Shown here in pieces: positions 34,409 through 46,239 of a DNA stretch of 64,000 nucleotides. The position numbers and the translations under genes were made by a program. Under the pieces are notes generated by a model that did no database searches, was not told the origin of the DNA, and saw nothing but the letters and a program-made list of their open reading frames with translations. Every line of letters begins with the position of its first letter. The first letter of the stretch is position 1. The DNA lies in IMG/VR virus record IMGVR_UViG_3300025379_000005, positions 42,652 through 106,651 of that record. The stretch is one strand, 5' to 3'. Source of the stretch: a virus.

Positions 34409-34437
34409 AAAAAAAGGCCCTCCCCGAAGGGAGAGCC
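34409..34437 (-). terminator. Intrinsic terminator, - strand
   Basis: On the - strand GGCTCTCCC-TTCG-GGGAGGGCC (one G-U pair) is followed by seven T. It lies directly after the tRNA-like element and ends the main - strand transcript. Confidence 0.88.
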
Positions 34438-34440
34438 CAA

Positions 34441-34530
34441 TGGTGGATACGAGAGGGTTCGAACCTCTATACAATGTTAGTGGAGTCCTGTGTAAGGGAA
34501 TTGTGTTTTTCCAACTTAAACTACGTATCC
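34441..34530 (-). tRNA. tRNA-like gene A, CCA-encoded, abnormal anticodon arm
   Basis: Read on the - strand: acceptor stem GGATACG/CGTATCC (7 bp), T8A9, D-arm GTTT-loop-AAAC with AAGTTGGAA loop, T-arm AGAGG-TTCGAAC-CCTCT, discriminator A and encoded CCA. The region between D- and T-arms does not give a 5-bp stem with a 7-base anticodon loop; instead ACAAT pairs with ATTGT around 24 bases. Total 86 bases before CCA. I cannot assign an amino acid. It may be a degraded tRNA or a processing signal (RNase P site) at the end of the operon, just before the terminator. Confidence 0.6.
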
Positions 34531-34564
34531 TAGCAGGCAGTTTTAGACATACCCAGGTCTTATC

Positions 34565-34966
34565 TTACCACCAACTGTCGTAGTAGATTTCCATGTCTTG
34601 ACCGATTGCCTTCATGGCATCATCAATAAACTTAAGGTCATCATCTATATCCTCTGGTCTACTTTCACCAAAGAAAAAACCTGTTGTTACTGGTAGTTCT
34701 TTACTTACTACAATTTCTTTTAATCTCATCAAATCTTGAAACGATACTCTAACTGGTGTACAGTTAAAAGTACCTTCACCACCCTTACTTTCATACAATT
34801 CTTCCATCCAACCCTGAAGGTCTGGGTGCTTACGCCATTGAGCAATAATAAACATACTTTGTTCATGTTCCTCTTGCTTAACTTTCCCAGAATCATTCCA
34901 ATAAATGTAAGTATCTGTATTTTCTGGGTGTGGCATTACTGCAAATGCGTATTGGTCTAACCCCAT
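34565..34966 (-). CDS. Conserved phage 'MGLDQYA' family protein, 133 aa
   Basis: MGLDQYAFAVMPH...WRKHPDLQGWMEELYE is a conserved phage family sometimes mislabelled phosphoglycerate kinase; no kinase motif is present. Two halves: a beta-rich N-part and a C-part ending YYDSWW. Function unknown. AAAGGAG site in the upstream gene's end. Confidence 0.65.
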   Translation of the reverse strand: MGLDQYAFAVMPHPENTDTYIYWNDSGKVKQEEHEQSMFIIAQWRKHPDLQGWMEELYESKGGEGTFNCTPVRVSFQDLMRLKEIVVSKELPVTTGFFFGESRPEDIDDDLKFIDDAMKAIGQDMEIYYDSWW

Positions 34967-34968
34967 AC

Positions 34969-35133
34969 TTACTCCTTTGTATTATCTCTAATTGATGCTA
35001 CTATACGTAATGCTTCTGCAAACCCTTGAGCAAATCCATTCTCAAAATCATCTTGCCTTGCCATTGCTAACTTAGTGTGATGACGAGTTTCATTACTAAG
35101 ACGAAAGTATGCTTCATCTAACTTCTTACCCAT
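34969..35133 (-). CDS. Hypothetical protein, 54 aa
   Basis: MGKKLDEAYFRLSNETRHH, then FENGFAQGFAEALRIVAS, an amphipathic helix. Start overlaps the WhiB stop (TAATG). Confidence 0.55.
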   Translation of the reverse strand: MGKKLDEAYFRLSNETRHHTKLAMARQDDFENGFAQGFAEALRIVASIRDNTKE

Positions 35134-35432
35134 TACTGTTCTCCTTCTTTATTTAGATTATTAAGTGCCCAGGCAAGCCTTTCTTGCTCATCCATACCGC
35201 CCCACCAACCAACCTCCATGTTACGGATGGCTTCAAGACGGCATGTATTAAGAACAGGACAATCTGTGCAAATTCTAACAAGTTTTTCTCTTATTTTATT
35301 TCCTGGAAGTTCTGAACCATAGACAAAATCATTAACATCTTTATCTCTACAGTTAGCAAAATCAAACCAACCAGACCTTGCAGGCTTAATTTTATCTGCA
35401 ATTCTTTTTATCTTTACTTTACTGGTAGCCAA
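35133..35432 (-). CDS. WhiB-family Fe-S regulator (2)
   Basis: 99 aa, the canonical small WhiB: WFDFANCRDKDVNDF (first Cys), VRICTDCPVLNTCRLEAI (C-x2-C-x5-C), then VGWWGGMDEQERLAW. TTG start after AAAGGGA. Fe-S/NO-sensing DNA-binding partner of host sigma factors. A second WhiB on the opposite strand from the first. Confidence 0.92.
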   Translation of the reverse strand: MATSKVKIKRIADKIKPARSGWFDFANCRDKDVNDFVYGSELPGNKIREKLVRICTDCPVLNTCRLEAIRNMEVGWWGGMDEQERLAWALNNLNKEGEQ

Positions 35433-35433
35433 A

Positions 35434-36114
35434 CTATCCCTTTCCTACTTTTGGTTGACCAAGGTCTACTGAACTAGCACTTGAAACACCTGACTCGTAA
35501 CCTTGTCTGTCTTTCAAAGTTCTACTTGAAATTTTTATTCTATCAACAGATTCCCAAAATTCAAGTATTGAATGTTCTTTCTTTCTTAAAGCAAGAGCAA
35601 AATTGTCATTGCCATTAAAAATAGATTCTTGTTCAATTTGAAACTTTTTTGCTTCTCTTAATCTTTTACTTATTGTTGCTGCATACCCACCAAAAAAACT
35701 TTTCTTCCAAGAAGTTGTTGCTCCATTACTAGGTATATTCATTGCTGCCTTACTAAACATGTCTATAACCAAATAGTTATACATGACTAGAGTTAATTCT
35801 ATGTCACTTTCATAACCATAGATAATAGCATAGTTAGAACCTCTGAGTACACGACAAAAGTTTTGCCTAGCAATAGAACCAAGCAATACACTCTTATCAA
35901 TTACATAAGGCGGAACAATCTCAACCTTTCGGTTAGAAATTACTTCATCCTTACTCCTACCAAATAGATCTGTTTCTTCTACTTGATACTTTGTCATTAA
36001 CTCTTGAGCTTTTTGTTGAAAGGCTTTTGCTTCTTCAACATACATTGTGCTGTTTGCTTTCTGAAGTAAACCTTCAACTTTTCTGATTACATCTTTGAGT
36101 TTCTGGTTACCCAT
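35434..36114 (-). CDS. DUF2786-domain protein
   Basis: 226 aa. VIRKVEGLLQKANSTMYVEE and FQQKAQELMTKYQVEE are the DUF2786 N-terminal helices; the rest is helical with an Arg/Lys-rich middle (KRLREAKKF). The domain occurs in phage and actinobacterial proteins without known function. Start ATG 36114 has AAGGAG six bases upstream; a hammerhead ribozyme forms its 5' leader. Confidence 0.7.
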   Translation of the reverse strand: MGNQKLKDVIRKVEGLLQKANSTMYVEEAKAFQQKAQELMTKYQVEETDLFGRSKDEVISNRKVEIVPPYVIDKSVLLGSIARQNFCRVLRGSNYAIIYGYESDIELTLVMYNYLVIDMFSKAAMNIPSNGATTSWKKSFFGGYAATISKRLREAKKFQIEQESIFNGNDNFALALRKKEHSILEFWESVDRIKISSRTLKDRQGYESGVSSASSVDLGQPKVGKG

Positions 36115-36130
36115 CAATCTCCTTTCAACC

Positions 36131-36187
36131 TATCTCATCAGTATGAAGTTAGTTATTCTTCATAGACGCCCGAAGGCGTTTCGACTT
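36131..36187 (-). ncRNA. Type II hammerhead ribozyme 1
   Basis: On the - strand: AGUC-GAA, stem III ACGCC-UUCG-GGCGU, C17 cleavage site (GUC), stem I UAUGAAG/CUUCAUA with a 9-base loop, core CUGAUGA, then GAU closing the short open stem II. All invariant core bases (CUGANGA, GAA, A15.1-U16.1, NUH) are present. Predicted cut is between plus positions 36165 and 36164. The downstream product would start with stem I as a 5' hairpin 40-50 bases before the DUF2786 start codon. Confidence 0.9.
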
Positions 36188-36200
36188 ATTATAATTCCTA

Positions 36201-36389
36201 CTACCATCTACTATCTAATCTTGCCTCATAAGCAATCTCTGCACGTTCAATGTCATAATCGTCTACTTCATCATAGTCATCTGGTTCTGGATCTGGGTCA
36301 AGTTCATCATTTATTTCATCTGGATCATAATCTCTTTCATCATAACCACAAGAACCACCACAACCTGGCCAGTTACAACTAGCACACAT
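36201..36389 (-). CDS. Acidic Cys-rich protein, 62 aa
   Basis: MCASCNWPGCGGSCGYDERD with four Cys near the N-terminus, then a long Asp/Glu/Pro tract. AAAGGAGAAAGT precedes the ATG. Ends 14 bases before ribozyme 1. Confidence 0.6.
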   Translation of the reverse strand: MCASCNWPGCGGSCGYDERDYDPDEINDELDPDPEPDDYDEVDDYDIERAEIAYEARLDSRW

Positions 36390-36399
36390 ACTTTCTCCT

Positions 36400-36618
36400 T
36401 TACTTAAAAGTTATTTTGAACCTTAACTTAAATGGTTTTGATTTTTTTACTTTAGCAATTTTTGGTAACTTAACAATACTAGATGTACTTGGTACCTTAA
36501 ATGCTTTTGTAGCACTAGCACTTATTTGTTTCTTTCTAGTTGCACTCAAAGTTTTAGTTGCTGGTTTTCTACTAGGCTTTGGTGCAATCCTGTATGGCTT
36601 CTTATTTCTAGTTGCCAT
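36400..36618 (-). CDS. Strongly basic protein, 72 aa
   Basis: Lys/Arg/Ser/Thr/Pro-rich throughout (YRIAPKPSRKPATKTL; KLPKIAKVKKSKPF). GGAGAAGAATA site. Possibly nucleic-acid binding; pairs in position with the very acidic protein next to it. Confidence 0.55.
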   Translation of the reverse strand: MATRNKKPYRIAPKPSRKPATKTLSATRKKQISASATKAFKVPSTSSIVKLPKIAKVKKSKPFKLRFKITFK

Positions 36619-36824
36619 TATTCTTCTCCTATCATAGGTTGACCATATTCTTCTTCAAAGGCAAGTCTTACTAGTGGGTCATAACTAGCAATCTCTTTTT
36701 CTACTTCTGAAAACATATCTTGTACTGCTTCATCAAGGCAACATCTTAGATAGTTAACTTGTTCATCAGTCCAACCGATGACCATTTGTTCACTAATCCA
36801 ACCTTCCCAGACGTAATCATCCAT
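36618..36824 (-). CDS. Hypothetical acidic protein, 68 aa
   Basis: MDDYVWEGWISEQMVIGWTD then CCLDEAVQDMFSEVEKE. Overlaps both neighbours by one base. No motif. Confidence 0.55.
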   Translation of the reverse strand: MDDYVWEGWISEQMVIGWTDEQVNYLRCCLDEAVQDMFSEVEKEIASYDPLVRLAFEEEYGQPMIGEE

Positions 36825-37237
36825 TAGATGACAACTCCTGAATACTTAAATACGAACTCTTCGTAAGCAATAGGTTCTTGTGACCATTCCCAAACAACGT
36901 CTTCTGAATTGTAATTTTCCCAGTCAACATTGTCATAGTTAATTTGTTGAATACCAACAGTTTTATCTAAGTGGTTAACAACAACTAACTTCCAAGTATC
37001 ACCGTGAAGTTCAAAACCAATACCAAATCCAATATCACTTAAAACTTCATCTTTAATCATTTCACTAAAAATAATTCTATTTAGGTACTCTTTGTCATTC
37101 CATCTTCCCCGACCTCTATCTAATGCATCAGAGACATAATTTTCTAATGAAGTTGCACCCCAATGTGTATAGAAATACAAATTAGGACTTTCTGCATTAT
37201 CTGTACCAATAATTTTTACTTGACCACGGTCTCCCAT
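36824..37237 (-). CDS. Conserved phage 'MGDRGQV' family protein, 137 aa
   Basis: MGDRGQVKIIG...LYFYTHWGATSLENYVSDAL matches a widespread small phage protein family of unknown role; the N-terminal GDRGxVxI and YxHW are its hallmarks. GAGGAGG site. Its leader contains minihelix B. Confidence 0.65.
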   Translation of the reverse strand: MGDRGQVKIIGTDNAESPNLYFYTHWGATSLENYVSDALDRGRGRWNDKEYLNRIIFSEMIKDEVLSDIGFGIGFELHGDTWKLVVVNHLDKTVGIQQINYDNVDWENYNSEDVVWEWSQEPIAYEEFVFKYSGVVI

Positions 37238-37279
37238 GATACCTCCTCTTTTATTTATTTTAATGTCTCACGACATAGT

Positions 37280-37325
37280 ACCTAATTTAAGAATCGAACT
37301 TAAATTAAATCCACCAGGATTAGGT
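37280..37325 (-). ncRNA. tRNA-like minihelix B (acceptor stem plus T-arm only)
   Basis: - strand: ACCTAAT, 15-base linker CCTGGTGGATTTAAT, T-arm TTAAG-TTCGATT-CTTAA, then ATTAGGT. Acceptor pairing is 7/7, T-stem 5/5, T-loop is the consensus TTCRANN, and the T-stem abuts the acceptor as in tRNA. D- and anticodon arms are missing. 3' flank is A-CTA, no CCA, followed by hairpin ATGTC-GTGA-GACAT. Sits 10 bases after one stop and before the next ribosome-binding site. Confidence 0.82.
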
Positions 37326-37334
37326 TACTTACTT

Positions 37335-37490
37335 CTAATAAGATAATAATGGAAAACCAAAATAGTCATCCAGACCTTCTACTGTACCACATGGTGAGCA
37401 AATGTCAGTCTTATTATCAACTCTAGACAAGGCAGGGTGTCCTGTCCATTCTTCTTTACAACGAGGACATACAAATGTCTTTTTTGTCAT
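37335..37490 (-). CDS. Zinc-ribbon protein, 51 aa
   Basis: MTKKTFVCPRCKEEWTGHPA then DICSPCGTVEGLDDYF: two CxxC knuckles of a classic ribbon. AAAGGAG site. Stop is 9 bases before minihelix B. Confidence 0.65.
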   Translation of the reverse strand: MTKKTFVCPRCKEEWTGHPALSRVDNKTDICSPCGTVEGLDDYFGFPLLSY

Positions 37491-37499
37491 AACTCTCCT

Positions 37500-37637
37500 T
37501 TAGTTAAAACCAAATTCTTCAAATACTGCTGCTCTAGCATCACTAAGTTCTGTATTTAGTTCTTCAAGCAATGTATTACTAATACCATTGTCTGTACCAA
37601 ACCATTCTGTTAGTAATTCACGAGTTACCTCTTCCAT
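37500..37637 (-). CDS. Hypothetical acidic protein, 45 aa
   Basis: MEEVTRELLTEWFGTDNGIS then a helical end EEFGFN. Packed between genes; AGGAGTAATA site. Confidence 0.5.
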   Translation of the reverse strand: MEEVTRELLTEWFGTDNGISNTLLEELNTELSDARAAVFEEFGFN

Positions 37638-37645
37638 TATTACTC

Positions 37646-38008
37646 CTATGCTTTATTGTGCAACTCATTGTGAAAATGAGAAGCAGGAATTATTACCATG
37701 TCTAGGAATGACTGAGGAACTGAGGTACTGTAACCTTCACCATCTGCCATGCCTGTGATAACAACTGGACCAACAATGTATCCATTGTCTACTCCATGTT
37801 CTGCCTCCCAAAGTGCTTTAGCAAAGACATTTAATTCCATACCTAGAAGTAATCCTTCATCGTGGACCCAAAGGTCAAGGCCTAAGTTAGGAAGTGAGAT
37901 ACAATCAAATATTCCCCCAATTAGTTCTTTTAGTTTGTCTCCACATTCTTCAACTGGAAATTCAACAATATCCATCTTACCTTCTGGTGTTAGATGTACT
38001 GCTTTCAT
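37646..38008 (-). CDS. DUF3846-like protein, 120 aa
   Basis: MKAVHLTPEGKMDIVEF, LDLWVHDEGLLLGMELNVFA and NGYIVGPVVITGMADGEGY follow the DUF3846 layout (short strands, 'vdeeG...glp.N..A', 'G.vvi.g'). The family is common in actinobacteria and phages, function unknown. AAAGGAG site; minihelix C in its leader. Confidence 0.6.
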   Translation of the reverse strand: MKAVHLTPEGKMDIVEFPVEECGDKLKELIGGIFDCISLPNLGLDLWVHDEGLLLGMELNVFAKALWEAEHGVDNGYIVGPVVITGMADGEGYSTSVPQSFLDMVIIPASHFHNELHNKA

Positions 38009-38040
38009 ATTTTCTCCTTTGTTTTACCCTTAACGGGAGC

Positions 38041-38082
38041 ACCCCATACAAGAATCGAACTTGTAAGAACACCATGTGGGGT
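38041..38082 (-). ncRNA. tRNA-like minihelix C
   Basis: - strand: ACCCCAC, 11-base linker ATGGTGTTCTT, T-arm ACAAG-TTCGATT-CTTGT, then ATGGGGT. Acceptor pairs 6/7 (A-C mismatch next to the T-stem), T-stem 5/5. 3' flank is G-CTC, followed by a short CCC-GTTAA-GGG hairpin. Lies 6 bases after a stop codon and before an AAAGGAG site. Confidence 0.8.
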
Positions 38083-38088
38083 TACCTA

Positions 38089-38226
38089 CTAAAAACAAAT
38101 GTCACAAGTGCAATGTTCCTTGCCACCAGATTCACATCTTAACTTAGCAAAATGAGGAGGCATTAAAGTTTCTCCTTTTTCTTTGCAATCTTGACAATAC
38201 TTACAACCATCAATAAATACAGACAC
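38089..38226 (-). CDS. Small Cys-rich protein, 45 aa
   Basis: GTG start. MSVFIDGCKYCQDCKEKGET, then LRCESGGKEHCTCDICF: seven Cys, two probable zinc sites. Overlaps the upstream stop by one base. Confidence 0.6.
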   Translation of the reverse strand: MSVFIDGCKYCQDCKEKGETLMPPHFAKLRCESGGKEHCTCDICF

Positions 38227-38324
38227 TACTCAACCTCCTGAAGTGAATACTTTTCTTCACATTGTGAACACATCTCCATACCCTCATCTGTAATTTCACC
38301 ACATTCAAGGCATGACCAATTCAT
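38226..38324 (-). CDS. Zinc-ribbon mini-protein, 32 aa
   Basis: MNWSCLECGEITDEG then EMCSQCEEKYSLQEVE: two CxxC. AAGGAG site (TAAGGAGTTTTATT). Confidence 0.6.
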   Translation of the reverse strand: MNWSCLECGEITDEGMEMCSQCEEKYSLQEVE

Positions 38325-38335
38325 AATAAAACTCC

Positions 38336-38677
38336 TTACTTTTCTCTTAGTTCATTCAGATAATTTTCTGCTTGTGTAAATGACTCATCATCATGAACAC
38401 TAACAATTGCTTCTTGGAACTGCTCCATTGCAGACTCATCAGTAGAAATTATCGTTGCTATATCTTTGATTCTTTGCAGTGTTTCTGAATGACTACTAGC
38501 ATGCAAGTGATTAGTATCACCATATAGATGTTGCATCTCATGCCAAAGTACAGGCATTTGCTGCTCATCTGTAACAATAGCAACACCTTCTGCACCATGC
38601 TTCTCAGCAATGTGCCTTAAGACATCTGTATAACTTAGCATTTCATAAACCCCAGTATATACTTCTTTGTCTTGCAT
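38336..38677 (-). CDS. Hypothetical protein, 113 aa
   Basis: Start ATG 38677 (MQDKEVYTGVYEML) has AAGGAGAAGT upstream; the frame is open further upstream, but that part is ribozyme 2. VAIVTDEQQMPVLWHEMQHLYG contains an H-E-x-x-H, so a zincin-like metal site is possible. Function unknown. Confidence 0.6.
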   Translation of the reverse strand: MQDKEVYTGVYEMLSYTDVLRHIAEKHGAEGVAIVTDEQQMPVLWHEMQHLYGDTNHLHASSHSETLQRIKDIATIISTDESAMEQFQEAIVSVHDDESFTQAENYLNELREK

Positions 38678-38693
38678 ACTTCTCCTTATTGTC

Positions 38694-38748
38694 TGTCTCT
38701 TCAGATTGGGTAGACTATCTCCCAATGACCCCTCCCGGGGTTTCGACT
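38694..38748 (-). ncRNA. Type II hammerhead ribozyme 2
   Basis: - strand: AGUC-GAA, stem III ACCCC-GGGA-GGGGU, C17 (GUC), stem I AUUGGG/CCCAAU with a 10-base loop, core CUGAAGA, GAC closing stem II with GUC. All core bases are canonical; N7 is A. Predicted cut between plus 38727 and 38726. Stem II begins inside the UAG stop codon of the VWA gene. Stem sequences differ from ribozyme 1 while pairing is kept, which supports function. Confidence 0.92.
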
Positions 38749-40174
38749 AAAATCCTTTCCGTTCTTTAGACGCTTTTTCTATGTAACTACGTAGATGTGT
38801 TGGTTTAGAAACATACTTTTTCCTACGCAACATTTCAATAGCCTCTTCTACTTTGTATGCAGTTGTAATCTTGTGCTTAACTACAAGTCGAGCACAAAAC
38901 ATACTAATCTCTGAGTTACGGTTATCTTGTGAATTTGTAACTAAACCGTCACATACCCAAATGATTGGTTCTTTCCTAAGTCTACGCTTAATAGCATACT
39001 CAAGTGCAGGACCATCAACACCATTACCACCATTGTTGTATTGAACATCACTAAGTTTTTCTACTTGCTTACCTCTATCTGCTAGAATAAACAGATTGGG
39101 CTTCCCAGCAATACGACTGTTGTGACTGTAAGCCATAACAAGTGCACCAGGAGCAGCATCAAGAATACTTTGAATTTGCTCATTAGTTAATGACATTGAA
39201 CCACTAACGTCAATAAGTACAACACCACCTTGGATTGGCATTTTCTGACCAAAAATCCTACGATGTGGATCTGTAAGCAAACGCTCTGGATAACGAATGT
39301 CAACACCAAACGCACCACCACGATACTTCCGAAGAAGTGACTTGGGGACAGTTTTGGTTAGTTTGACTGTATTATCAATCTTAAGCGGAGCAAAACCGAT
39401 ATTTGTTGACTCATTTACATCTGGGCCTTTGCCTGAACTTTCTTCAATGTCACTTGGTGAAAGCATGTACTTTTCTACAAGGTGACCAACAATAAAAGTG
39501 TGGTGAAAAGCAAATGGCATTTTAATTTCAACAACTTGTTTTGGTAGTAGGTAACTACATGGATCTGTATCAACAAGAGATTTTAAGGATGTCCTTTCGG
39601 TTACATACTTAGTAACTTCATTGCTCATTTCCCTAAGCACTTTGGCCCATTCCTCATTGTTTCGGCGAACGCCTACCAATAAAGAATTGAATGCCTTAGT
39701 GCCTACAAGTGATAAACCATAACACACAAGAATGTTCCAAGCACTGCCTGTACCATCTTCTGCTAAACGCTCACCCAATGATTTTTCTGAACCAGTCTTG
39801 AGCATGTCAGTATTGAAACCAGCAAGTTTTGCAACATAATTGATTCTAAACTCCTCAGCAGCTTTTAACAAACCTGGCAAGAATTCCTTGCAAGCAAGTT
39901 CAAAAGTTTCTGGATTACTTAGACCAACACGAACACGAATGTTCTCTTTGTTACGATAGAACTTGGAGGCTTCGTCTCGTAGTACGGTAGTCCTAAACGT
40001 ATGAGTGGAGAAATCTGCAAGTGTACTCTCTGGTTGGAGAATTTCTTCGATTTCCCACTGCACACGCTTAGAACCATCAGTATCAGAGCGAAATGTTGTC
40101 AATGCCTCTGGAAGAGGAATAACAGCATCTGAACGCCTGAACGAGACTTTTGTATTAGTCTCTTTCTGCTTCAT
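38747..40174 (-). CDS. VWA-domain (CoxE-like) protein, partner of MoxR ATPase
   Basis: 475 aa, start ATG 40174 just after the MoxR stop. The VWA domain lies in the C-terminal half with an intact MIDAS: GGVVLIDVSGSMSLTNEQ (DxSGS), GGNGVDGPAL, and IWVCDGLVTNSQ (late Asp). The N-terminal 280 residues are helical. MoxR-VWA pairs act as metal-dependent remodelling machines; in phages the target is unknown. Its stop codon is part of ribozyme 2. Confidence 0.8.
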   Translation of the reverse strand: MKQKETNTKVSFRRSDAVIPLPEALTTFRSDTDGSKRVQWEIEEILQPESTLADFSTHTFRTTVLRDEASKFYRNKENIRVRVGLSNPETFELACKEFLPGLLKAAEEFRINYVAKLAGFNTDMLKTGSEKSLGERLAEDGTGSAWNILVCYGLSLVGTKAFNSLLVGVRRNNEEWAKVLREMSNEVTKYVTERTSLKSLVDTDPCSYLLPKQVVEIKMPFAFHHTFIVGHLVEKYMLSPSDIEESSGKGPDVNESTNIGFAPLKIDNTVKLTKTVPKSLLRKYRGGAFGVDIRYPERLLTDPHRRIFGQKMPIQGGVVLIDVSGSMSLTNEQIQSILDAAPGALVMAYSHNSRIAGKPNLFILADRGKQVEKLSDVQYNNGGNGVDGPALEYAIKRRLRKEPIIWVCDGLVTNSQDNRNSEISMFCARLVVKHKITTAYKVEEAIEMLRRKKYVSKPTHLRSYIEKASKERKGF

Positions 40175-40175
40175 A

Positions 40176-40913
40176 CTACAACTGACCAATTAGCAATGTG
40201 TCTTGAATTGACTCTGCAATACCCTTACCAAAAGCAAGTTCTGCTGCCTTAGCAACCTCAAACACTTTTGACAACTGGACATAAGCAAGGAAACCACGAA
40301 GCGATACACGGCGACCGTTACCACCACTGCACAATTCACGAGCAATACCACGCAAGTTCTCTGGCAATGAAAGTAGTGCGGAAGGGTGAGGCTCTGTAAT
40401 CTCAATCTTGACTGGAAAACGGTCAAACAATGCTGGGTCTAACTCTGTCAAGTCAACTAAGTTAGTGGTCATTACTACCTCAAAACCAGGTTGAGGCGTG
40501 ATACGCTCACCTGTTGGTAGAATGTGCTTAGCACTTCCATCAGTGTCGGTGTAAGCCAACAACAATGAAAGAACGTCACCACTAGCACGGTTAACCTCGT
40601 CAATAAGAAGACGGCGACCATAACGCCAAGCACGAGTACCTGGACCATCGTGGTATGTGTAAGTGCCTTGTTCATTTGGCATCCACATACCCTCAATTGC
40701 TGCTACAGTCATTTCTTCGTGACAGACAATGCGGTCAACCTCTACACCTTCTGAAAGGCCAAAGTTGAGTGCTGCATAGGACTTACCAATACCAGGTTCC
40801 CCTGAAAGAATGATACGTCCTACCTCAGAGGCCATAGCCCCTTGAGTGTCTTGCCAGCATTGTGGGACTGGAAGGCCCATGTGGACCTTCTCAATTTCTA
40901 TTGTTTGTGTCAT
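40176..40913 (-). CDS. MoxR-type AAA+ ATPase
   Basis: 245 aa. IILSGEPGIGKSYAALNFGL (Walker A), RRLLIDEVNRASGDVLSLLL (Walker B), FEVVMTTNLVDLTELDPALF (sensor 1) and FDRFPVKIEIT (Arg finger) are all present. Works with the VWA protein encoded directly downstream. Start follows GAAGGAGTCAGAG; leader contains ribozyme 4. Confidence 0.88.
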   Translation of the reverse strand: MTQTIEIEKVHMGLPVPQCWQDTQGAMASEVGRIILSGEPGIGKSYAALNFGLSEGVEVDRIVCHEEMTVAAIEGMWMPNEQGTYTYHDGPGTRAWRYGRRLLIDEVNRASGDVLSLLLAYTDTDGSAKHILPTGERITPQPGFEVVMTTNLVDLTELDPALFDRFPVKIEITEPHPSALLSLPENLRGIARELCSGGNGRRVSLRGFLAYVQLSKVFEVAKAAELAFGKGIAESIQDTLLIGQL

Positions 40914-40931
40914 CTCTGACTCCTTCTAGCC

Positions 40932-40986
40932 TGTCTCATCGGTGCAAGGCGGCCACCCCTTACAGACGCCCGAAGGCGTTTCGACT
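40932..40986 (-). ncRNA. Hammerhead ribozyme 4, core variant (CCGAUGA)
   Basis: - strand: AGUC-GAA, stem III ACGCC-UUCG-GGCGU, C17, stem I UGUAAGG/CCUUGCA (one U-G), then CCGAUGA instead of CUGANGA, GAC closing stem II. Architecture and stems match the other copies exactly, but the invariant U4 is C. It is either inactive/slow or a genuine core variant. Located between the stop of the small membrane protein and the MoxR ribosome-binding site. Confidence 0.75.
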
Positions 40987-40987
40987 A

Positions 40988-41221
40988 TTAGAATATCTTT
41001 AATTGCTTATTTGTCTTACGAGCATAAACTCTAGCAATAGCATTTGGAATAGTTGCAATCAACCACCAAAGAGCAACCCAAAGGTAATAACTCTTATGAT
41101 ACCAAAATGCTTTTCCTATAAAATACCAGAAAACCAAATTGGCTAATCCACTAGCTGTCAATGCTGAGACAATAATCCACTTTAGAAAAGACTCTAACAA
41201 ATCTTTTACTGTCCTATTCAT
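40988..41221 (-). CDS. Two-span membrane protein, 77 aa
   Basis: Hydrophobic segments WIIVSALTASGLANLVFWYF and YYLWVALWWLIATIPNAIA; basic tail ARKTNKQLKIF. Could be a holin given the nearby lysozyme-fold gene, but this is only position-based. GGAGAATA site. Confidence 0.6.
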   Translation of the reverse strand: MNRTVKDLLESFLKWIIVSALTASGLANLVFWYFIGKAFWYHKSYYLWVALWWLIATIPNAIARVYARKTNKQLKIF

Positions 41222-41315
41222 TATTCTCCTTATCGTACTGCCTAGATAATTTCCAGACTATAATCAATGAGACACCTAATGCCACTTGAAATACAGTCGT
41301 AATGAATCTGTCCAT
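41214..41315 (-). CDS. Single-span membrane peptide, 33 aa
   Basis: MDRFITTVFQVALGVSLIIV, then WKLSRQYDKENNE. AAAGGAGAAATA site. 3' end overlaps the two-span gene. Possible holin/antiholin-like partner. Confidence 0.55.
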   Translation of the reverse strand: MDRFITTVFQVALGVSLIIVWKLSRQYDKENNE

Positions 41316-41366
41316 TATTTCTCCTTTTTAACAGTGGTCGGACTGACCACTTTGGGTTTAATCATG

Positions 41367-41849
41367 TTACCTACAAATTCTTAAATCTGGTCCCCATTCA
41401 GGGCCCAAACCTTGATTACGTTGGTAATACCATACAGCGACCAAAGACTGCTGGTCACCAGTTGCCTTGTTAGGCGATTCTGGTAAACCAATAATGTTTT
41501 GTCTTGCATAGTTCCATATACTTGGCATGAATTGATACCAACCTTGAGAATTTGACTCTTGATTAGTATCTACTAAGTGATTGCGAGATTCTTGATAACG
41601 AATACACGCAAACTGTGACTGAACGTTGACCGGAAGATTCCATGTTGGATCTGCCTTGTCTGGCCAACTAGCAGTTGAGTCAGTTGAACGAGTATCCCAC
41701 TTCATCACTGAAGGAGGAACTGTTATAACTGTCACTTGACTAACTTTTGGAATTGAAATAACTTCCTTGTGGTTAATCTGGTTCGAAGTGCCTGGCATGA
41801 CAATTGAACCAAGTGCAAGTACACTGAGATTGACTATTGTCTTTATCAT
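41367..41849 (-). CDS. Secreted lysozyme-fold (Rpf/SLT-like) transglycosylase
   Basis: 160 aa. An N-terminal signal-like segment (MIKTIVNLSVLALGSIVMPG) is followed by a Ser/Thr/Pro linker and a C-terminal domain FACIRYQESRNHLVDTNQES, SQGWYQFMPSIWNYA, DQQSLVAVWYYQRNQG. This is the resuscitation-promoting-factor/lysozyme-like fold with the catalytic Glu in IRYQES. It would cut cell-wall glycan at lysis or help exported spread. Preceded by a large 5' hairpin. Confidence 0.78.
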   Translation of the reverse strand: MIKTIVNLSVLALGSIVMPGTSNQINHKEVISIPKVSQVTVITVPPSVMKWDTRSTDSTASWPDKADPTWNLPVNVQSQFACIRYQESRNHLVDTNQESNSQGWYQFMPSIWNYARQNIIGLPESPNKATGDQQSLVAVWYYQRNQGLGPEWGPDLRICR

Positions 41850-41876
41850 TGTACTCTCCTTTCTGGGTAGTTTTAT

Positions 41877-41968
41877 TACCCAAGTGATAGCATGAACTGT
41901 TAACTACCGGGGGGATAAAGATTAATAGTTCATACTACCACTTGAGTAGTCGAAATTACTCTCGACTA
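41877..41968 (-). ncRNA. Long 5'-leader hairpin (22 bp) plus upstream 7-bp hairpin
   Basis: On the - strand a 22-bp helix with three G-U pairs and no mismatch forms between 41927-41948 and 41877-41898 around a 28-base loop. A second hairpin, TAGTCGA-GAGTAATT-TCGACTA (41947-41968), lies just upstream and shares the outer pair. It occupies the whole gap before the transglycosylase's AAAGGAG site. A perfect duplex this long is a typical RNase III substrate. Confidence 0.85.
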
Positions 41969-41978
41969 ACTACAAGGT

Positions 41979-42455
41979 TTAGTACATCTGGTATTCTCCA
42001 GCAATGTCTGCCAAAGGACCGGTGCGGATGCGCTTTTGACGCAACTTAACACCGTTCTTCATAGCATGTACTCCTAAACGAGCACCAAACTTTGCAAGAA
42101 CAAGAGATGTCTTTACTGTCTTGCCCCAACCAAAGAAGTCACGAACTTCTTGGGCGGTAACAATGTGGACTTCACCGTCTAAGAACCTGTCAAAGTCAAA
42201 ACCTTTCCAGTTCAATGGCTTTTTAGCAATTGACTTGGATACTTTTTGCTTTAATGGCAACTTAGTTAATGTTGTGCTTACTGTCTCACTAGATTTAGAT
42301 GCACCAAGCATGACAGGCACCAGGTCTGAATTGTTCTCAATGAACGAAACTGTCTGGTCAAGTGTTGCTGGCATGCCAAACATACCAGAAACTCTTTCCT
42401 GAATCTTGGTTATCTCACTCAAAGTGAGTTGGTCGGGGTTAAATGGGCGTACCAT
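41979..42455 (-). CDS. Hypothetical protein, 158 aa
   Basis: MVRPFNPDQLTLSEITKIQE; the C-terminal part is basic (KFGARLGVHAMKNG, KLRQKRIRTGPL), with HIVTAQEVRDFFGWGK as a possible HTH. Start ATG 42455 follows AAAGGAAGTG. Could bind DNA; family unknown. Confidence 0.55.
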   Translation of the reverse strand: MVRPFNPDQLTLSEITKIQERVSGMFGMPATLDQTVSFIENNSDLVPVMLGASKSSETVSTTLTKLPLKQKVSKSIAKKPLNWKGFDFDRFLDGEVHIVTAQEVRDFFGWGKTVKTSLVLAKFGARLGVHAMKNGVKLRQKRIRTGPLADIAGEYQMY

Positions 42456-42490
42456 AATAACACTTCCTTTGTTTAAACTGATTAGCAATC

Positions 42491-42550
42491 TGCCTCATCA
42501 GGCAATGAGCGATAAACCTCACTGCTATCCCCCGAAGGGGATTTCGGCTA
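42491..42550 (-). ncRNA. Type II hammerhead ribozyme 3
   Basis: - strand: UAGCC-GAA, stem III AUCCCC-UUCG-GGGGAU, cleavage base A17 (AUA, a permitted NUH), stem I GCAGUGAG/CUCAUUGC with an 8-base loop, core CUGAUGA, GGC closing stem II with GCC. Every core position is canonical. All three stems differ in sequence from the other copies, giving compensatory support. The UAG stop of the upstream gene is part of stem II. Confidence 0.92.
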
Positions 42551-42793
42551 ACTTCTAGTTAACTTTAATATCTCAATCTGTTGTTTCTGAACATCAATAA
42601 GTTGTTCTTGAACTGCTCTAATTTTGTTTGCACTGGTTAGTAGATCTTCTTGCATCTTCATTACCTCAACAAGCATTGAAACTAATTCTTTTACTTTCTC
42701 AATGCTTTCCAAAGAATCTTTCCCAACCTCAACCATTGCTAAAAATTGCTCAGTGTCTGAAAAACCAAAATCTTCAAGATTGAACTCTGACAT
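42548..42793 (-). CDS. Coiled-coil protein, 81 aa
   Basis: MSEFNLEDFGFSDTEQFLAM then a long heptad-like helix (ELVSMLVEVMKMQEDLL; VQEQLIDVQKQQIEILKL). Likely oligomeric. AAGGAGAAAGT site. Confidence 0.65.
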   Translation of the reverse strand: MSEFNLEDFGFSDTEQFLAMVEVGKDSLESIEKVKELVSMLVEVMKMQEDLLTSANKIRAVQEQLIDVQKQQIEILKLTRS

Positions 42794-42802
42794 ACTTTCT
42801 CC

Positions 42803-43003
42803 TTATACTTTTACTTTTCTGTTGCATTGACTGCAAGTTACTACATCTCCAGGGTTTTCAAGCACTAGTGTCTCAAAGTCTTCACCTGAAAGGTATTCAA
42901 ATAAACTTTCGTCCAAATACATTGAACTCATAGCACATTCTTTACAATAAAAACTGCTTGTAAAACCCTGAAGTTTGTCAATAAGTGAATAAACTAAAGT
43001 CAC
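42803..43003 (-). CDS. Small two-CxxC protein, 66 aa
   Basis: GTG start after GGAAGGAG. SFYCKECAMSSM and VVTCSQCNRKVKV form a split zinc ribbon. Leader contains ribozyme 5. Confidence 0.6.
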   Translation of the reverse strand: MTLVYSLIDKLQGFTSSFYCKECAMSSMYLDESLFEYLSGEDFETLVLENPGDVVTCSQCNRKVKV

Positions 43004-43030
43004 TTACCAAACTCCTTCCCTTTTTTGATT

Positions 43031-43085
43031 TGTCTCTTCAGTATGGGACAATCAACTCCCATAGACGCCCGAAGGCGTTTCGACT
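43031..43085 (-). ncRNA. Type II hammerhead ribozyme 5
   Basis: - strand: AGUC-GAA, stem III ACGCC-UUCG-GGCGU, C17 (GUC), stem I UAUGGGA/UCCCAUA with an 8-base loop, core CUGAAGA, GAC closing stem II with GUC. Canonical core. Stem III equals that of ribozymes 1 and 4; stem I differs. The UAG stop of the upstream gene (43084-43086) overlaps stem II. Confidence 0.92.
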
Positions 43086-43401
43086 ATTTAACTTCTTGCT
43101 TTGCAAGACGAACCAATGAGTCATAAACTTCATTGTAAATTGTCTGTGTTCTTTCAACACCTGAAACACATTGGTCAAATTCTTCACTATCTTCGTCATA
43201 CGTCTTGGAAACTTCCAAGAGCATTCCTCCAGCGACCGCACATGCTTGCATGGTGTCAAACCAAAGAATTGACGGCAAAGTAACTTGAATAAGTGTGTTC
43301 TCATCAACATCATTCTCATGCAAAATATCCAGGATTTCTTCTAAAGATCCCCGAACTCCTTTGCCTTCTTGAAAATTGCTTTCAAATGGACTGTCTTGCA
43401 T
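43084..43401 (-). CDS. Hypothetical acidic protein, 105 aa
   Basis: MQDSPFESNFQEGKGVRGSL then LEEILDILHENDVDENTL; helical, with Cys in MQACAVAGGM. GAGAGGAAGT site. Ends in ribozyme 5. Confidence 0.6.
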   Translation of the reverse strand: MQDSPFESNFQEGKGVRGSLEEILDILHENDVDENTLIQVTLPSILWFDTMQACAVAGGMLLEVSKTYDEDSEEFDQCVSGVERTQTIYNEVYDSLVRLAKQEVK

Positions 43402-43424
43402 TTTACTTCCTCTCTTTTTATTAT

Positions 43425-43694
43425 TTACTTCTCAATTGCTTCTTTTACAAAGTTGCCGAATAGGTTACTCCAACATCCATTACAAATGCCAGAGATAAAC
43501 AATTCTCTCAAACTTTTATCAAGATCTGGGAAAGCATCTTGAACCATAGAACCAGCGTTCCATTGCCCAAAATTATCTGTTGAAACTGAAAAAGAATGAA
43601 GTGTTGAACACTTTGTGCAAACAGCCTTAAGTGTCACTTCTTCTGACTTTTCAGAAACAACCTCAATCCAAGGTGTTCTTTCTAATTGTTTCAT
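43425..43694 (-). CDS. Zinc-binding protein, 89 aa
   Basis: AVCTKCSTLHSFSVST and FISGICNGCWSNLFG give two CxxC pairs 45 residues apart. Leader holds minihelix D. Confidence 0.6.
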   Translation of the reverse strand: MKQLERTPWIEVVSEKSEEVTLKAVCTKCSTLHSFSVSTDNFGQWNAGSMVQDAFPDLDKSLRELFISGICNGCWSNLFGNFVKEAIEK

Positions 43695-43734
43695 TTTTCC
43701 TCTCTTACTACTGCAATAATGAATACTGCATGGT

Positions 43735-43775
43735 TTCCGGGAGAAGAATCGAACTTCTCTACAACCATTCCGGAA
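43735..43775 (-). ncRNA. tRNA-like minihelix D with encoded CCA
   Basis: - strand: TTCCGGA, 10-base linker ATGGTTGTAG, T-arm AGAAG-TTCGATT-CTTCT, then CCCGGAA, immediately followed by A and CCA (plus 43734-43731). Acceptor 6/7 (A-C next to the T-stem), T-stem 5/5. The correctly placed discriminator and CCA make chance unlikely. A 7-bp hairpin TGCAGTA-TTCAT-TATTGCA follows at once. Located 9 bases after a stop codon. Confidence 0.85.
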
Positions 43776-43784
43776 TACTAAAAC

Positions 43785-44099
43785 TTACAATGTTTCTGCT
43801 GTCACTTCTACAAGAAATGGACTCTTGAGGCACTGATTGTGAACAAGAAGCGGTTCAATATCTTGCATTGAGCCACCCCAATTACAAAACTCACCATCCT
43901 TTTCTGGAACACAATTAAGAACCATCCAGTCATAACCACCGTGTCCGCTTGCTTCTGCATACCCTGTTGGGTGGCATGGAGGAACCATTGACTCTGCGTT
44001 AATGATTTCCCCACAACCTGCACAAGTAATTGCCGCATCTCCGTAAGATTCTGGACCATCCCATGCTTCTACTTTGTATTGCTCATAAGTCATCCTCAT
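43785..44099 (-). CDS. Hypothetical Cys-rich protein, 104 aa
   Basis: MRMTYEQYKVEAWDGPESYG, AAITCAGCGEIINAES, CHPTGYAEASGHGGYDW, and NCVPEKDGEFCNWGG: several Cys/His for metal binding. Overlaps the upstream gene by 17 bases. Unknown. Confidence 0.6.
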   Translation of the reverse strand: MRMTYEQYKVEAWDGPESYGDAAITCAGCGEIINAESMVPPCHPTGYAEASGHGGYDWMVLNCVPEKDGEFCNWGGSMQDIEPLLVHNQCLKSPFLVEVTAETL

Positions 44100-44313
44100 G
44101 ACTTACCTCCTTTGTCTGTACTGCTTTTATTTTCTCTAACTTTGTCCATAGAAAGTGATACATACCTTCCGGGAGAACTTCCCCGTTATCTGCTAATGTC
44201 TCTAGAAATTGCATAACAACAACTATGCCTGAACCAATCTGGTCAATTCTGGCAGAAACAATCTCTTCCAATTGACCATCTGACTCGTCATACAAACTTA
44301 CTATGTCATCCAT
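44083..44313 (-). CDS. Hypothetical acidic protein, 76 aa
   Basis: MDDIVSLYDESDGQLEEIVS; helical, no motif recognised. Three bases after the upstream stop. Confidence 0.55.
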   Translation of the reverse strand: MDDIVSLYDESDGQLEEIVSARIDQIGSGIVVVMQFLETLADNGEVLPEGMYHFLWTKLEKIKAVQTKEVSHEDDL

Positions 44314-44316
44314 GGA

Positions 44317-44448
44317 TTATCGCACCTTTGTGTGAATAGCCCATGACTTAGCACAAATGTAGACAACTTCTTTCTCTACCAATGGTTTCAAAATAAAGTT
44401 ACTTACTATAAGTTTGTCTAGTTCTTTTAACTTACTAATCTTTACCAC
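44317..44448 (-). CDS. Hypothetical protein, 43 aa
   Basis: Start GTG 44448 chosen because AAAGGAGG lies four bases upstream; the frame is open further upstream but without a site. Product VVKISKLKELDKLIVSNFIL... is amphipathic. Confidence 0.5.
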   Translation of the reverse strand: MVKISKLKELDKLIVSNFILKPLVEKEVVYICAKSWAIHTKVR

Positions 44449-44476
44449 TTTACCTCCTTTGTTTGTACTACCAATC

Positions 44477-44506
44477 GGTGACTCAAACATTTCTGCTTGA
44501 ATCACC
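44477..44506 (-). other. Leader hairpin, 10 bp
   Basis: - strand GGTGATTCAA pairs with TTGAGTCACC (one U-G) around a 10-base loop, between a stop codon and the AAAGGAGG of the next gene. Same position in the gene order as ribozymes and minihelices elsewhere. Confidence 0.65.
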
Positions 44507-44527
44507 TCAGATGTTACAAATCTTTAC

Positions 44528-45010
44528 TTAAACTGTCTCTTTAATAATTCCGGATTCTATCAATACTTGAGCACAATCAAAATTGTCCCAACCTACTTTG
44601 TACGGATCTAAACCGGTTAATGTCTCAAAACTGTGAACTGGATTACCCCAGTCGGTATTTTCATACAATTCAAAAATACCATCATCAGGCCAACTGAATA
44701 CTCTAGTTTCTGGGAACTTGTAACTAAAAAACTCACTTTCTTCTGAAATAAGAAAACGTGACTGTTCTTCTCCATTACCCAAGAACCAAACACTATCATT
44801 CATTGGATCTGCTGAATAAAACTCACAACAATACTTAAGATAACCATCTCTTGCATCACTCCCTTCGTAATTGTTGTACATTTCTTGGAATCTATCTTTC
44901 AATAGATCCTTTGCAACTTCGCTAATATCTGGTGAACTTTCAATAATTTCATCACCATCAACAGAAAAGTCACCACGACAACTAGTATAATCAACTATAC
45001 GGTATCTCAT
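44528..45010 (-). CDS. Hypothetical protein, 160 aa
   Basis: MRYRIVDYTSCRGDFSVDGD (start ATG 45010 just after the upstream stop). Aromatic and acidic: SVWFLGNGEEQSRFLISEES, FSWPDDGIFELYENTD. No family recognised. Confidence 0.6.
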   Translation of the reverse strand: MRYRIVDYTSCRGDFSVDGDEIIESSPDISEVAKDLLKDRFQEMYNNYEGSDARDGYLKYCCEFYSADPMNDSVWFLGNGEEQSRFLISEESEFFSYKFPETRVFSWPDDGIFELYENTDWGNPVHSFETLTGLDPYKVGWDNFDCAQVLIESGIIKETV

Positions 45011-45011
45011 C

Positions 45012-45353
45012 TTACAAATCACCACCATCAATGGTGCCCAACTTGGATTCTACTATTGGAAAACCAACCATGTGTGAAAACATTGAGTTAGCAAGTTCCA
45101 TAGCATCTTCTAATGTTTTGGCAAGACCTTCATGCTTTGGACCACCGTACATACCGCAGTCACCAACTTCTGCATGAAACCAACCATCATTAAGTTGGTC
45201 AATTTCTGCATAGTTCATTGAAACATCAACTCCTTCTACTTCTTCTGAAAGTTGCATGTATGAACCCCATGAGTCTTCTAAAATCCACTCACTTTTGTCA
45301 CCATCAAATGCTTGATTCTGATACCAATGTGCTTTTAACTTTAACTCTGACAT
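45012..45353 (-). CDS. Hypothetical protein, 113 aa
   Basis: MSELKLKAHWYQNQAFDGDK, then SWGSYMQLSEEVEGVDVSMN; beta-rich. AAAGGAGATAAAT site. Its long leader contains a cloverleaf-like structure. Confidence 0.6.
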   Translation of the reverse strand: MSELKLKAHWYQNQAFDGDKSEWILEDSWGSYMQLSEEVEGVDVSMNYAEIDQLNDGWFHAEVGDCGMYGGPKHEGLAKTLEDAMELANSMFSHMVGFPIVESKLGTIDGGDL

Positions 45354-45378
45354 ATTTATCTCCTTTATAGTCAGTTCT

Positions 45379-45513
45379 GGGCAAAATCGCCCAATGAATA
45401 CACATAAAACACATATCTGGACTAGACAACCAAGTAGATCCGTAGTGATACGTTAGTTCTTAAGGAGAACTCTAATTTTATGTGTACTCATTGCACGACT
45501 CTAATCAGTGCAA
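45379..45513 (-). ncRNA. Large multibranched leader RNA closed by a 17-bp helix
   Basis: - strand: hairpin TTGCAC-loop-GTGCAA (45491-45513); 17-bp helix between 45476-45492 and 45393-45409 (one G-U); inside it AGTTCT/AGAACT, CGTA-TCAC-TACG and an ATCT...AGAT arm; then GGGC-AAAATC-GCCC (45379-45392). The inner region thus looks like three arms closed by a long stem. It lies between a terminator and the gene at 45353. Could be a regulatory leader or processed ncRNA. Confidence 0.7.
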
Positions 45514-45514
45514 T

Positions 45515-45557
45515 AAAAAAGGGGCCACGCGTCCATGCTTTTTCGAGCGCGCTAGCC
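45515..45557 (-). terminator. Intrinsic terminator, - strand
   Basis: - strand GGCTA(G)CGC / GCGTGGCC, 8 bp with one bulged G and one U-G, loop of about 18 bases, then CCCC and six T. Ends the unit containing the gene at 45588-45797, or acts as attenuator. Confidence 0.65.
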
Positions 45558-45587
45558 ATAGATCTAAGATCTAATTATAAAACTTAC

Positions 45588-45797
45588 TTAAGACGTAAAT
45601 TCTACGTCTTCTGCAATACTTAACTTAATACCAAGTTCTGCTAAGTTTTCTAATGCCTCAATAAAATCTGGATCTTTGTGATACTTTTCAAACTGCTCCG
45701 TCATTGACATCCCCGCAATTGCAATAATAGTTATCAAAGTATCTATCTGCTTCTTGGAAAATGTAACAACTATTTCTTTTTCTGTTTCTTCCGGCAT
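45588..45797 (-). CDS. Hypothetical protein, 69 aa
   Basis: MPEETEKEIVVTFSKKQIDT then LITIIAIAGMSMTEQF; helical, acidic ends. GGAGGCAGTC site. Lies between tRNA-like element E and a terminator. Confidence 0.6.
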   Translation of the reverse strand: MPEETEKEIVVTFSKKQIDTLITIIAIAGMSMTEQFEKYHKDPDFIEALENLAELGIKLSIAEDVEFTS

Positions 45798-45832
45798 GAC
45801 TGCCTCCTTTCTCTTACATATTTACAACTAGA

Positions 45833-45962
45833 AGACGTGATTGGATTCGAACCAATACCAGCAACAAGATAAAAAGACAATGGAAACAACCGATGAACTG
45901 AAAGGAAAATTGTCTTTCTTATCTTATCTCTACTCTAATGCTACCACTTACACCACACGTCT
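45833..45962 (-). ncRNA. tRNA-like element E with giant hairpin replacing the anticodon arm
   Basis: - strand: acceptor AGACGTG/CACGTCT (7/7), TG, D-arm GTGT-AAGTGGTA-GCAT, T-arm ATTGG-TTCGAAT-CCAAT. Between them AAGATAA(G)AAAGACAAT pairs with ATTGTCTTTTTATCTT, a 16-bp helix with a bulged G and a 27-base loop, instead of an anticodon arm. Total 130 bases; no CCA. Too short and lacking a tag frame for tmRNA. All features needed for RNase P and RNase Z recognition are kept, those for decoding are not. Confidence 0.75.
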
Positions 45963-45969
45963 ATAAAGC

Positions 45970-46180
45970 TAATACAAACATCAAAATATATGTCTTACAC
46001 TCTCCATACTACAAGCATGGACTAATGTATTTATGGTATACTATTGAAAGGAGGTGCTTAGTTCCCTCTCTTTCCATATGACTACCACCATATATTCTCC
46101 CGTATAACGCCCCTATAATGACGTCTATACGGTTCTTTTCTCTTACTTGTATCTGCTGTATGTCAAATGAATGACCCTAC
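45970..46180 (-). other. Structured leader region without genes
   Basis: No credible gene. On the - strand it can form CCGTATA(G)ACG/CGTTATACGG (46100-46109 with 46122-46132) and ATATG-GTGGTAGT-CATAT, and it carries CACCTCCTTTC (46046-46056), identical to the actinobacterial 16S rRNA 3' tail. Lies between a strong terminator and tRNA-like E, so it probably contains a promoter, but I could not identify one with good spacing. Confidence 0.5.
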
Positions 46181-46223
46181 AAAAAAAGGCCCTCACCCAC
46201 ACATAATTGTATGGATGAAGGCC
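46181..46223 (-). terminator. Strong intrinsic terminator, - strand
   Basis: - strand GGCCTTCATCCATACA / TGTGTGGGTGAGGGCC: 16 bp with three U-G pairs, 4-base loop, then seven T. Begins 17 bases after the stop of the gene at 46240. Confidence 0.92.
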
Positions 46224-46239
46224 CTAATTTGTTTACTGC

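Follow-up and report, generated by a model that had tools for sequence, protein, structure and literature searches.

The gene cluster on the - strand at positions 34415-46186 of the analyzed DNA (the window, 64,000 nucleotides of an actinobacterial virus) has ribozymes and tRNA-like structures in the gaps between its genes. These are five hammerheads of type II, three minihelices made of an acceptor stem and a T-arm, and two larger tRNA-like elements, and all of them are on the coding strand. A strong terminator stands at each end of the cluster: an intrinsic one with a 10-bp stem followed by a T-run (34415-34438, - strand) closes the operon, and that of the preceding gene (46186-46225, - strand) marks its upstream border. 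No convincing terminator was found on the coding strand between 34438 and 46186.

The eight short elements (hammerheads plus minihelices) share the coding strand, and the opposite strand has neither type anywhere in the 64-kb window. The same scanner, run on both strands of 150 shuffled versions of the window (first-order Markov), yielded 0 hammerheads and 1 minihelix. Each element sits between a stop codon and the downstream ribosome-binding site, and the short elements bear out this placement as it had been claimed in a first-pass annotation of the locus. The upstream stop codon shares one base with stem II at 43084, 42548, and 38747, and it is at most ~20 nt away from the remaining hammerheads and the minihelices. 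As in tRNA punctuation, tRNA-like structures occupy gaps between co-directional genes.

All five hammerheads that the annotation placed in these gaps have an intact type II core (GAAA, CUGANGA, and cleavage after UH). On the - strand, they occur at 43024-43085 (predicted cut 43064/43063), at 42485-42548 with an A at the cleavage position (42526/42525), before the MoxR-type AAA gene at 40925-40986 (40965/40964), after the VWA-type gene at 38687-38748 (38727/38726), and before the DUF2786 gene at 36125-36185 (36165/36164). Their GAAA motifs are, in the same order, at 43081, 42545, 40982, 38744, and 36182. Stems I and III are closed by loops and the 3-bp stem II is open in every copy, and the core deviates by U4 to C in one copy and by A at N7 in two. 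Judged by eye, loop I could pair with the 3' tail in a pseudoknot of 6 bp at 43081, of at least 4 at 40982 and 38744, and of only ~3 at 42545 and 36182. Scores with the Rfam model RF02276 (cut-off 37 bits) are at or above this value for three copies, namely 49 bits for 40925-40986 and, from a smaller search, 37.4 for 43024-43085 and 37.3 for 38687-38748; the copy at 42548 falls below it with 25 bits, and no score was reported for the copy at 36185. It is a caveat to reading the elements as punctuation that four of the five lie just at or under the cut-off. Hammerheads of related phages include natural core variants, an extra U in GAAA and a U3/A8 pair, which correspond to variants treated in PMC3088659.

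The three predicted minihelices likewise proved to be well formed. The structure scan places them on the - strand at 37279-37325, followed by a small hairpin (ATGTC-GTGA-GACAT), at 38040-38082 before the DUF3846 gene, again followed by a small hairpin, and at 43734-43775, after which come ACCA and a small hairpin. Each has 12 stacked base pairs, the T-loop TTCGATT, and GGT in the linker. In its general form, the element stacks an acceptor stem on a T-arm to give the 12-bp length found in tRNA, with a T-loop that is mostly UUCGAUU and a short linker that bears a D-loop-like GG. Only the same three copies were found in the whole 106,651-bp virus record. Compared with the tRNA family (RF00005), the minihelices and the larger tRNA-like elements share the 12-bp acceptor/T-arm stack and the T-loop, and the minihelices have neither a D-arm nor an anticodon arm with a 7-nt loop.

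Both larger tRNA-like elements of the first-pass annotation are recognizable as such. The element that lies at the operon's 3' end (34441-34530, - strand) has an encoded CCA, is without a normal anticodon loop, and is reported by ARAGORN as 'tRNA-???'; positions 34444-34530 match the RF00005 model with 40 bits. Near the operon's 5' end, the predicted fold of 45834-45962 (- strand) has a long hairpin for an anticodon arm, and it combines a tRNA-like acceptor (AGACGTG/CACGTCT) with a D-arm and a T-arm (ATTGG-TTCGAAT-CCAAT). The cloverleaf-like elements of relatives have anticodon arms closed by loops of 3-5 nt, which makes decoding unlikely. From these features, the minihelices and cloverleaf-like elements are predicted to be tRNA-like for the sake of processing and not to be decoding tRNAs. 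Other gaps on the - strand hold plain predicted hairpins: one of 7-8 bp (AGTGGTC..GACCACT) at 41314-41370, one of ~20 bp at 41850-41978 (129 nt, -49.0 kcal/mol), one of 13 bp at 44449-44527 (79 nt, -25.3 kcal/mol), and an extensive long-stem structure at 45354-45590 (-75.5 kcal/mol). The second and third of these are the strong folds that had been expected at 41877 and 44477. Rfam matches to MIR393 and snoRNAs in the window and to Plastid-ycf2 in relatives are far under the cut-offs and were dismissed as chance.

Comparison of the window with six related phages (G050, L274, L277, L278, L280, and L281) shows that hammerhead and tRNA-like forms replace one another at orthologous junctions in both directions. 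The first-pass annotation had named absence from equivalent gaps as the result that would speak against it; instead, most orthologous junctions compared again carry an element. Before the MoxR-type gene, where the window has a hammerhead, G050 and L274 have a minihelix, and L277, L280, and L281 have a cloverleaf-like element whose anticodon arm is closed. The acceptor (ACTGCAG/CTGCAGT) and T-arm (GTGGG..CCCAC) of the G050 minihelix are nearly those of the L281 cloverleaf, as expected for a trimmed tRNA. At the F1b junction, G050 and L274 have a hammerhead, L277 and L280 a minihelix, and L281 a variant hammerhead recognized by eye. After gene F6, the window has a minihelix whereas G050 and L274 have a hammerhead.

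Elsewhere the element type is kept. The DUF2786 junction also has a hammerhead in G050, L274, L277, L280, and L281, the DUF3846 gene is preceded by a similar element in L274, and the junction before gene F2 (37279-37325 in the window) has a minihelix in all six relatives. Among the F2 minihelices, 8 of 11 pairs show double (compensatory) changes, with a covariation of 0.75 versus 0.26 when shuffled. The counterpart before F2 in L281 contains an outer mismatch. A comparison of strains was uninformative about compensatory changes because they are 99.95-99.98% identical. The gap upstream of F3 in L278, of F8 in L277, L280, and L281, and of F7 in both the window and L274 holds a plain hairpin or no element, so the elements are not obligatory.

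Judged from sequence searches, this putative minihelix element is widespread in phages, where several different copies per phage lie in operon gaps. A pattern scan of viral contigs that required only the two loop-adjacent pairs gave 111 matches, of which 75 have three further T-stem pairs (10.8 with shuffled partners) and 35 have an acceptor run of at least 6 (4.7 with shuffled partners). About half of the 22 pattern matches in genome contigs are not full minihelices; some of these resemble ordinary tRNAs matched in part, and others are without a match. For model building, the sequences were trimmed to equal linkers, and the profile search of 35 related loci gave 13 matches, all on the coding strand. 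A C follows the discriminator in 40 of 63 minihelices, and an encoded CCA is missing in most. Cultured carriers are a prophage of Lapidilactobacillus luobeiensis (L257, at a tail gene junction) and Lactobacillus phage Lc-Nu. In the stretches examined of the Streptomyces phages Yaboi and StarPlatinum, we found real tRNAs, which in Yaboi alternate with genes, and no convincing minihelices. Neither an Rfam family nor a published description of the element was found. Megablast matched neither 24 kb of the window nor loci L202, L195, and L092 to annotated phages.

Directly observed are the structures with the strand and gaps in which they lie, the way in which they recur and are exchanged at orthologous junctions, and the compensatory changes. 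We consider it probable that the elements serve as mRNA punctuation, through self-cleavage or host RNase P; the single transcript, the cleavage, the enzymes, and the benefit are what we infer. The operon would be transcribed as one long RNA and then cut at gene junctions. After self-cutting by a type II hammerhead, the upstream message would end (3') in the stem III hairpin, and the downstream message would begin (5') with the stem I hairpin. At other junctions, host RNase P would recognize a minihelix or a non-decoding cloverleaf, with RNase Z perhaps acting on the 3' side, and the small hairpin that usually follows a minihelix would remain close to the start of the downstream message. The two element types would be functionally equivalent and could replace each other during evolution. 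Most simply, a minihelix may derive from a tRNA gene that has lost its D-stem and anticodon arm. The first-pass proposal that one transcript is cut into gene-sized mRNAs gains from the terminators at both ends and from the recurrence and exchange at junctions, but the cutting idea itself is not new (PMC3088659). Its suggestion that both mRNA ends are protected fits the hammerheads and does not obviously extend to the minihelices, since RNase P alone would leave the upstream 3' end without a hairpin. No RNA ligase or kinase was named among 20 window proteins compared with PHROGs.

The minihelices keep the tRNA features that RNase P reads (12-bp stack, T-loop, D-loop-like GG, and C after the discriminator; reviewed in PMC4919913), which argues for punctuation. 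The same features bear on an unlikely alternative, in which hammerheads cut while tRNA-like elements stay uncut as stable, tRNA-shaped caps or insulators that stop exonucleases or bind a tRNA-handling protein. Any robust structure would then serve in a shared gap, and plain long hairpins do fill gaps in the window and its relatives; after the VWA-type gene, for example, G050 and L274 have a long hairpin at the junction where the window has a hammerhead. However, a mere insulator needs no conserved T-loop, D-loop-like GG, tRNA-length stack, or C after the discriminator. The location of every element, after a stop codon and ahead of a ribosome-binding site, would also suit a main effect of all elements, hammerheads included, on translation or transcription (prevention of coupling, pausing of the polymerase, or display of the ribosome-binding site) with cleavage irrelevant or rare. 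This is quite improbable given that the hammerhead catalytic core is kept, including the paired U3/A8 change, which is expected only if cleavage matters.

The tRNA-mimic look and the several copies per phage might instead indicate that small RNAs are excised to lure host defenses that target tRNAs, or to titrate tRNA enzymes, with message cutting as a by-product. We regard this as highly improbable: minihelices have no anticodon and are therefore unable to bait anticodon nucleases, and both the stop-to-start position and the exchange with hammerheads at a junction indicate a role in cis. It is scarcely credible that the minihelices have no present function and are products of chance, tRNA genes in decay, or attachment sites. 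Although one junction does show a series from cloverleaf to minihelix, the distinct copies per phage in operon gaps, the compensatory changes, and the shuffle results speak against this; the covariation and recurrence results already contradict it, and the copies and compensatory changes rule out an attachment-site or decayed-tRNA origin as the whole story.

Mitochondrial tRNA punctuation and plant mitochondrial t-elements provide a precedent for mRNA punctuation, with intergenic tRNAs or tRNA-like structures that mark RNase P and RNase Z cuts. They share tRNA-like structures between genes with the window, whereas here DNA phages have minihelices without a D-stem or anticodon arm that alternate with self-cleaving ribozymes. 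Perreault et al. 2011 (PMC3088659) described clustered phage hammerheads and proposed that these divide phage transcripts into gene-sized mRNAs. In the portions of that paper on which we draw, the prophage hammerheads (RF02276) resemble those of the window in being type II with a short stem II and in that several copies border one gene or a small block of genes, and their loop I/3'-tail pseudoknot may have a counterpart in the window; unlike here, those portions name no tRNA-like partner and no exchange of element types at orthologous junctions. RNase P is known to cut synthetic acceptor/T-arm minihelices, and its natural non-tRNA substrates include phage M3 RNA, C4 antisense RNA, T4 gene 32 mRNA, and polycistronic mRNAs, although the relevant sections of the review that covers them (PMC11143913) name no natural minihelix family at gene junctions. 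Theta ribozymes beside phage tRNAs (PMC10879173) also tie phage self-cleaving ribozymes to tRNA-type processing, but they are HDV-like, are proposed to process tRNA 3' ends, and are neither at mRNA junctions nor exchangeable with tRNA mimics. What appears to be new is the minihelix element, the exchange of types at orthologous junctions, and the presence of a cloverleaf-like acceptor and T-arm in one minihelix.

Swaps at the same gap suggest that the signals for cutting one long message into gene-sized pieces form an interchangeable set. With somewhat less assurance, we lean toward the broader view that tailed phages of several host phyla mark RNase P cutting sites between genes with tRNA-derived minihelices, a family not described before, and that one actinophage group exchanges these freely with hammerheads as interchangeable cutters. 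For the many hammerheads in phage genomes, whose roles are still putative, replacement at orthologous gene junctions by putative tRNA-like RNase P substrates offers independent evidence from evolution in favor of mRNA cutting, and a way to test it directly. If this reading is correct, it would supply compact processing parts for multi-gene constructs, add an RNA element not found in our Rfam and literature search, and carry tRNA punctuation over from organelles to viruses.

The first-pass annotation assigned positions to five hammerheads, three minihelices (a tRNA acceptor stem and T-arm joined by a short linker) and two tRNA-like elements, all of which are borne out; the hammerheads are of type II. 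Our scanners recover the five hammerheads and three minihelices on the - strand of the window and neither element on its + strand. Applied to 150 Markov-shuffled versions of the window, they return a single minihelix and not one hammerhead. No further minihelices were found in the whole 106,651-bp virus record, of which the window is bases 42652-106651. The elements lie in a - strand cluster of small genes that also encodes a MoxR-type ATPase and a VWA-type protein. Strong - strand intrinsic terminators at 46225-46186 and 34438-34415 border this cluster, and no comparable - strand terminators occur between them. The host is probably an actinobacterium, since the cluster has a WhiB-like gene and the DNA polymerase is closest (~35% identity) to those of Rhodococcus, Gordonia and Mycobacterium phages. 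The three tRNA genes just upstream of the window (Arg, Ser and Tyr; G000 41609-41917) are ordinary, which makes the odd tRNA-like elements of the cluster conspicuous. Over 12.4 kb the window differs from the strain in L074 at six positions, all of them (45822-45917) within or next to the 5' tRNA-like element. Elsewhere in the window, a QueE-like radical SAM gene (10127-10837) suggests 7-deazaguanine chemistry.

The product of the gene at 37237-36824, used as the query, turned up six related phage lineages that share this operon (G050, L274, L277, L278, L280 and L281). Flanking-gene orthology was tested by BLASTP, and junction states were read from metagenomic contigs by the scanners and by eye. 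The junction upstream of gene F2 has a minihelix in all seven phages, with changes on both sides in 8 of 11 pairs and a covariation of 0.75 vs 0.26 in shuffles. A hammerhead precedes the DUF2786 gene in six of the seven (those of L274 and L277 being core or stem variants assigned by eye); in L278 this gap is 36 nt long. Element types are exchanged at other junctions. Upstream of the MoxR gene there is a hammerhead in the window, a minihelix in G050 and L274, and a cloverleaf-like element in L277, L280 and L281. The F1b gene is preceded by a hammerhead in G050 and L274, a minihelix in L277 and L280, and a variant hammerhead, read by eye, in L281; F6 is followed by a minihelix in the window and a hammerhead in G050 and L274. 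Some orthologous junctions have no element. At the MoxR junction, the acceptor (ACTGCAG/CTGCAGT) and T-arm (GTGGG/CCCAC) of the G050 minihelix nearly match those of the L281 cloverleaf, as expected if this minihelix derived from a cloverleaf that had lost its D-stem and anticodon arm. The cloverleaf-like elements are unlikely to decode, because their anticodon arms are closed by loops of 3-5 nt.

Among the hammerheads of the relatives there are forms with an additional U inside GAAA and with a U3/A8 pair, both variants described in PMC3088659. Those at conserved junctions at L274 8310, L281 ~5700-5790 and L277 ~12635-12693 have unusual cores (GAAA with an additional U; CTGAATGA carrying an insertion after A6; TTGACAA).

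In the three window minihelices the acceptor stem stacks on the T-arm for a total of 12 bp, the T-loop is TTCGATT, and a 10-15-nt linker with GGT replaces the D-arm, anticodon arm and variable loop. These are the features of a tRNA that RNase P measures, namely its elbow and its acceptor/T-arm length (PMC4919913). A discriminator base follows the acceptor stem, and in 40 of the 63 copies the next base is C; downstream there is usually a small hairpin and then a ribosome-binding site. For 29 of the 63 there is a stop codon somewhere between -12 and +25 nt of the acceptor, vs 11.8% of random places.

The minihelices form a family of elements. When viral contigs were scanned for TGGT-(7-12 nt)-AGTTCGATTCT, a pattern that requires pairing only at the two positions nearest the loop, at least 120 stretches matched. 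Among the 111 distinct matches listed, three further pairs extend the T-stem in 75 (10.8 expected with shuffled partners) and the acceptor run is at least 6 in 35 (4.7 expected). A 52-copy profile finds eight, five and four copies in whole records G089, G050 and G090, and one genome-contig scan adds copies from contigs assigned to Bacteroidota, Firmicutes and other groups. We found no such family in Rfam or in literature searches. A Lapidilactobacillus prophage from the genome-contig scan (L257 2935-2976) has a canonical minihelix between its major tail protein and tail assembly chaperone genes. Lactobacillus phage Lc-Nu (L310, ~2090-2145) has a structure that resembles it but has diverged, with TCCGATT as the T-loop, in the gap after its major tail protein gene, and R24.1 (L311) has a minihelix-like structure before the next tail gene at the same place. 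The Lc-Nu structure is only a candidate, as the minihelix profile does not detect it. Four minihelices occur within 500 bp of a contig filed under Porphyromonadaceae (L255 5569-6067), and one lies directly 5' of an ArdC-type anti-restriction gene (L249 10620-11681).

Cultured Streptomyces phages Yaboi (NC_048730, 584-22535) and StarPlatinum (NC_048721) alternate single tRNA genes with small coding genes over ~24 kb, and several of their CDSs begin at the base right after a tRNA. This stretch also has tmRNA, RNA ligase and polynucleotide kinase genes, and these phages encode a distant homologue of a window cluster gene. Their arrangement is possibly true tRNA punctuation.

The proposal that hammerheads cleave phage transcripts dates from 2011, when clusters were also tested in vitro (PMC3088659). 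RNase P substrates reviewed in PMC11143913 include synthetic acceptor/T-arm hairpins, phage M3 and C4 RNAs, T4 gene 32 mRNA and polycistronic mRNAs. Cleavage by RNase P would yield a 3' end without the hairpin that a hammerhead leaves. The long hairpins at other junctions may be double-strand nuclease sites or plain end protectors. Because two unrelated elements, each known to direct a cut, swap at the same junctions, the simplest explanation of these sequence comparisons would be that hammerheads and tRNA-like elements have a common role in cutting the transcript.
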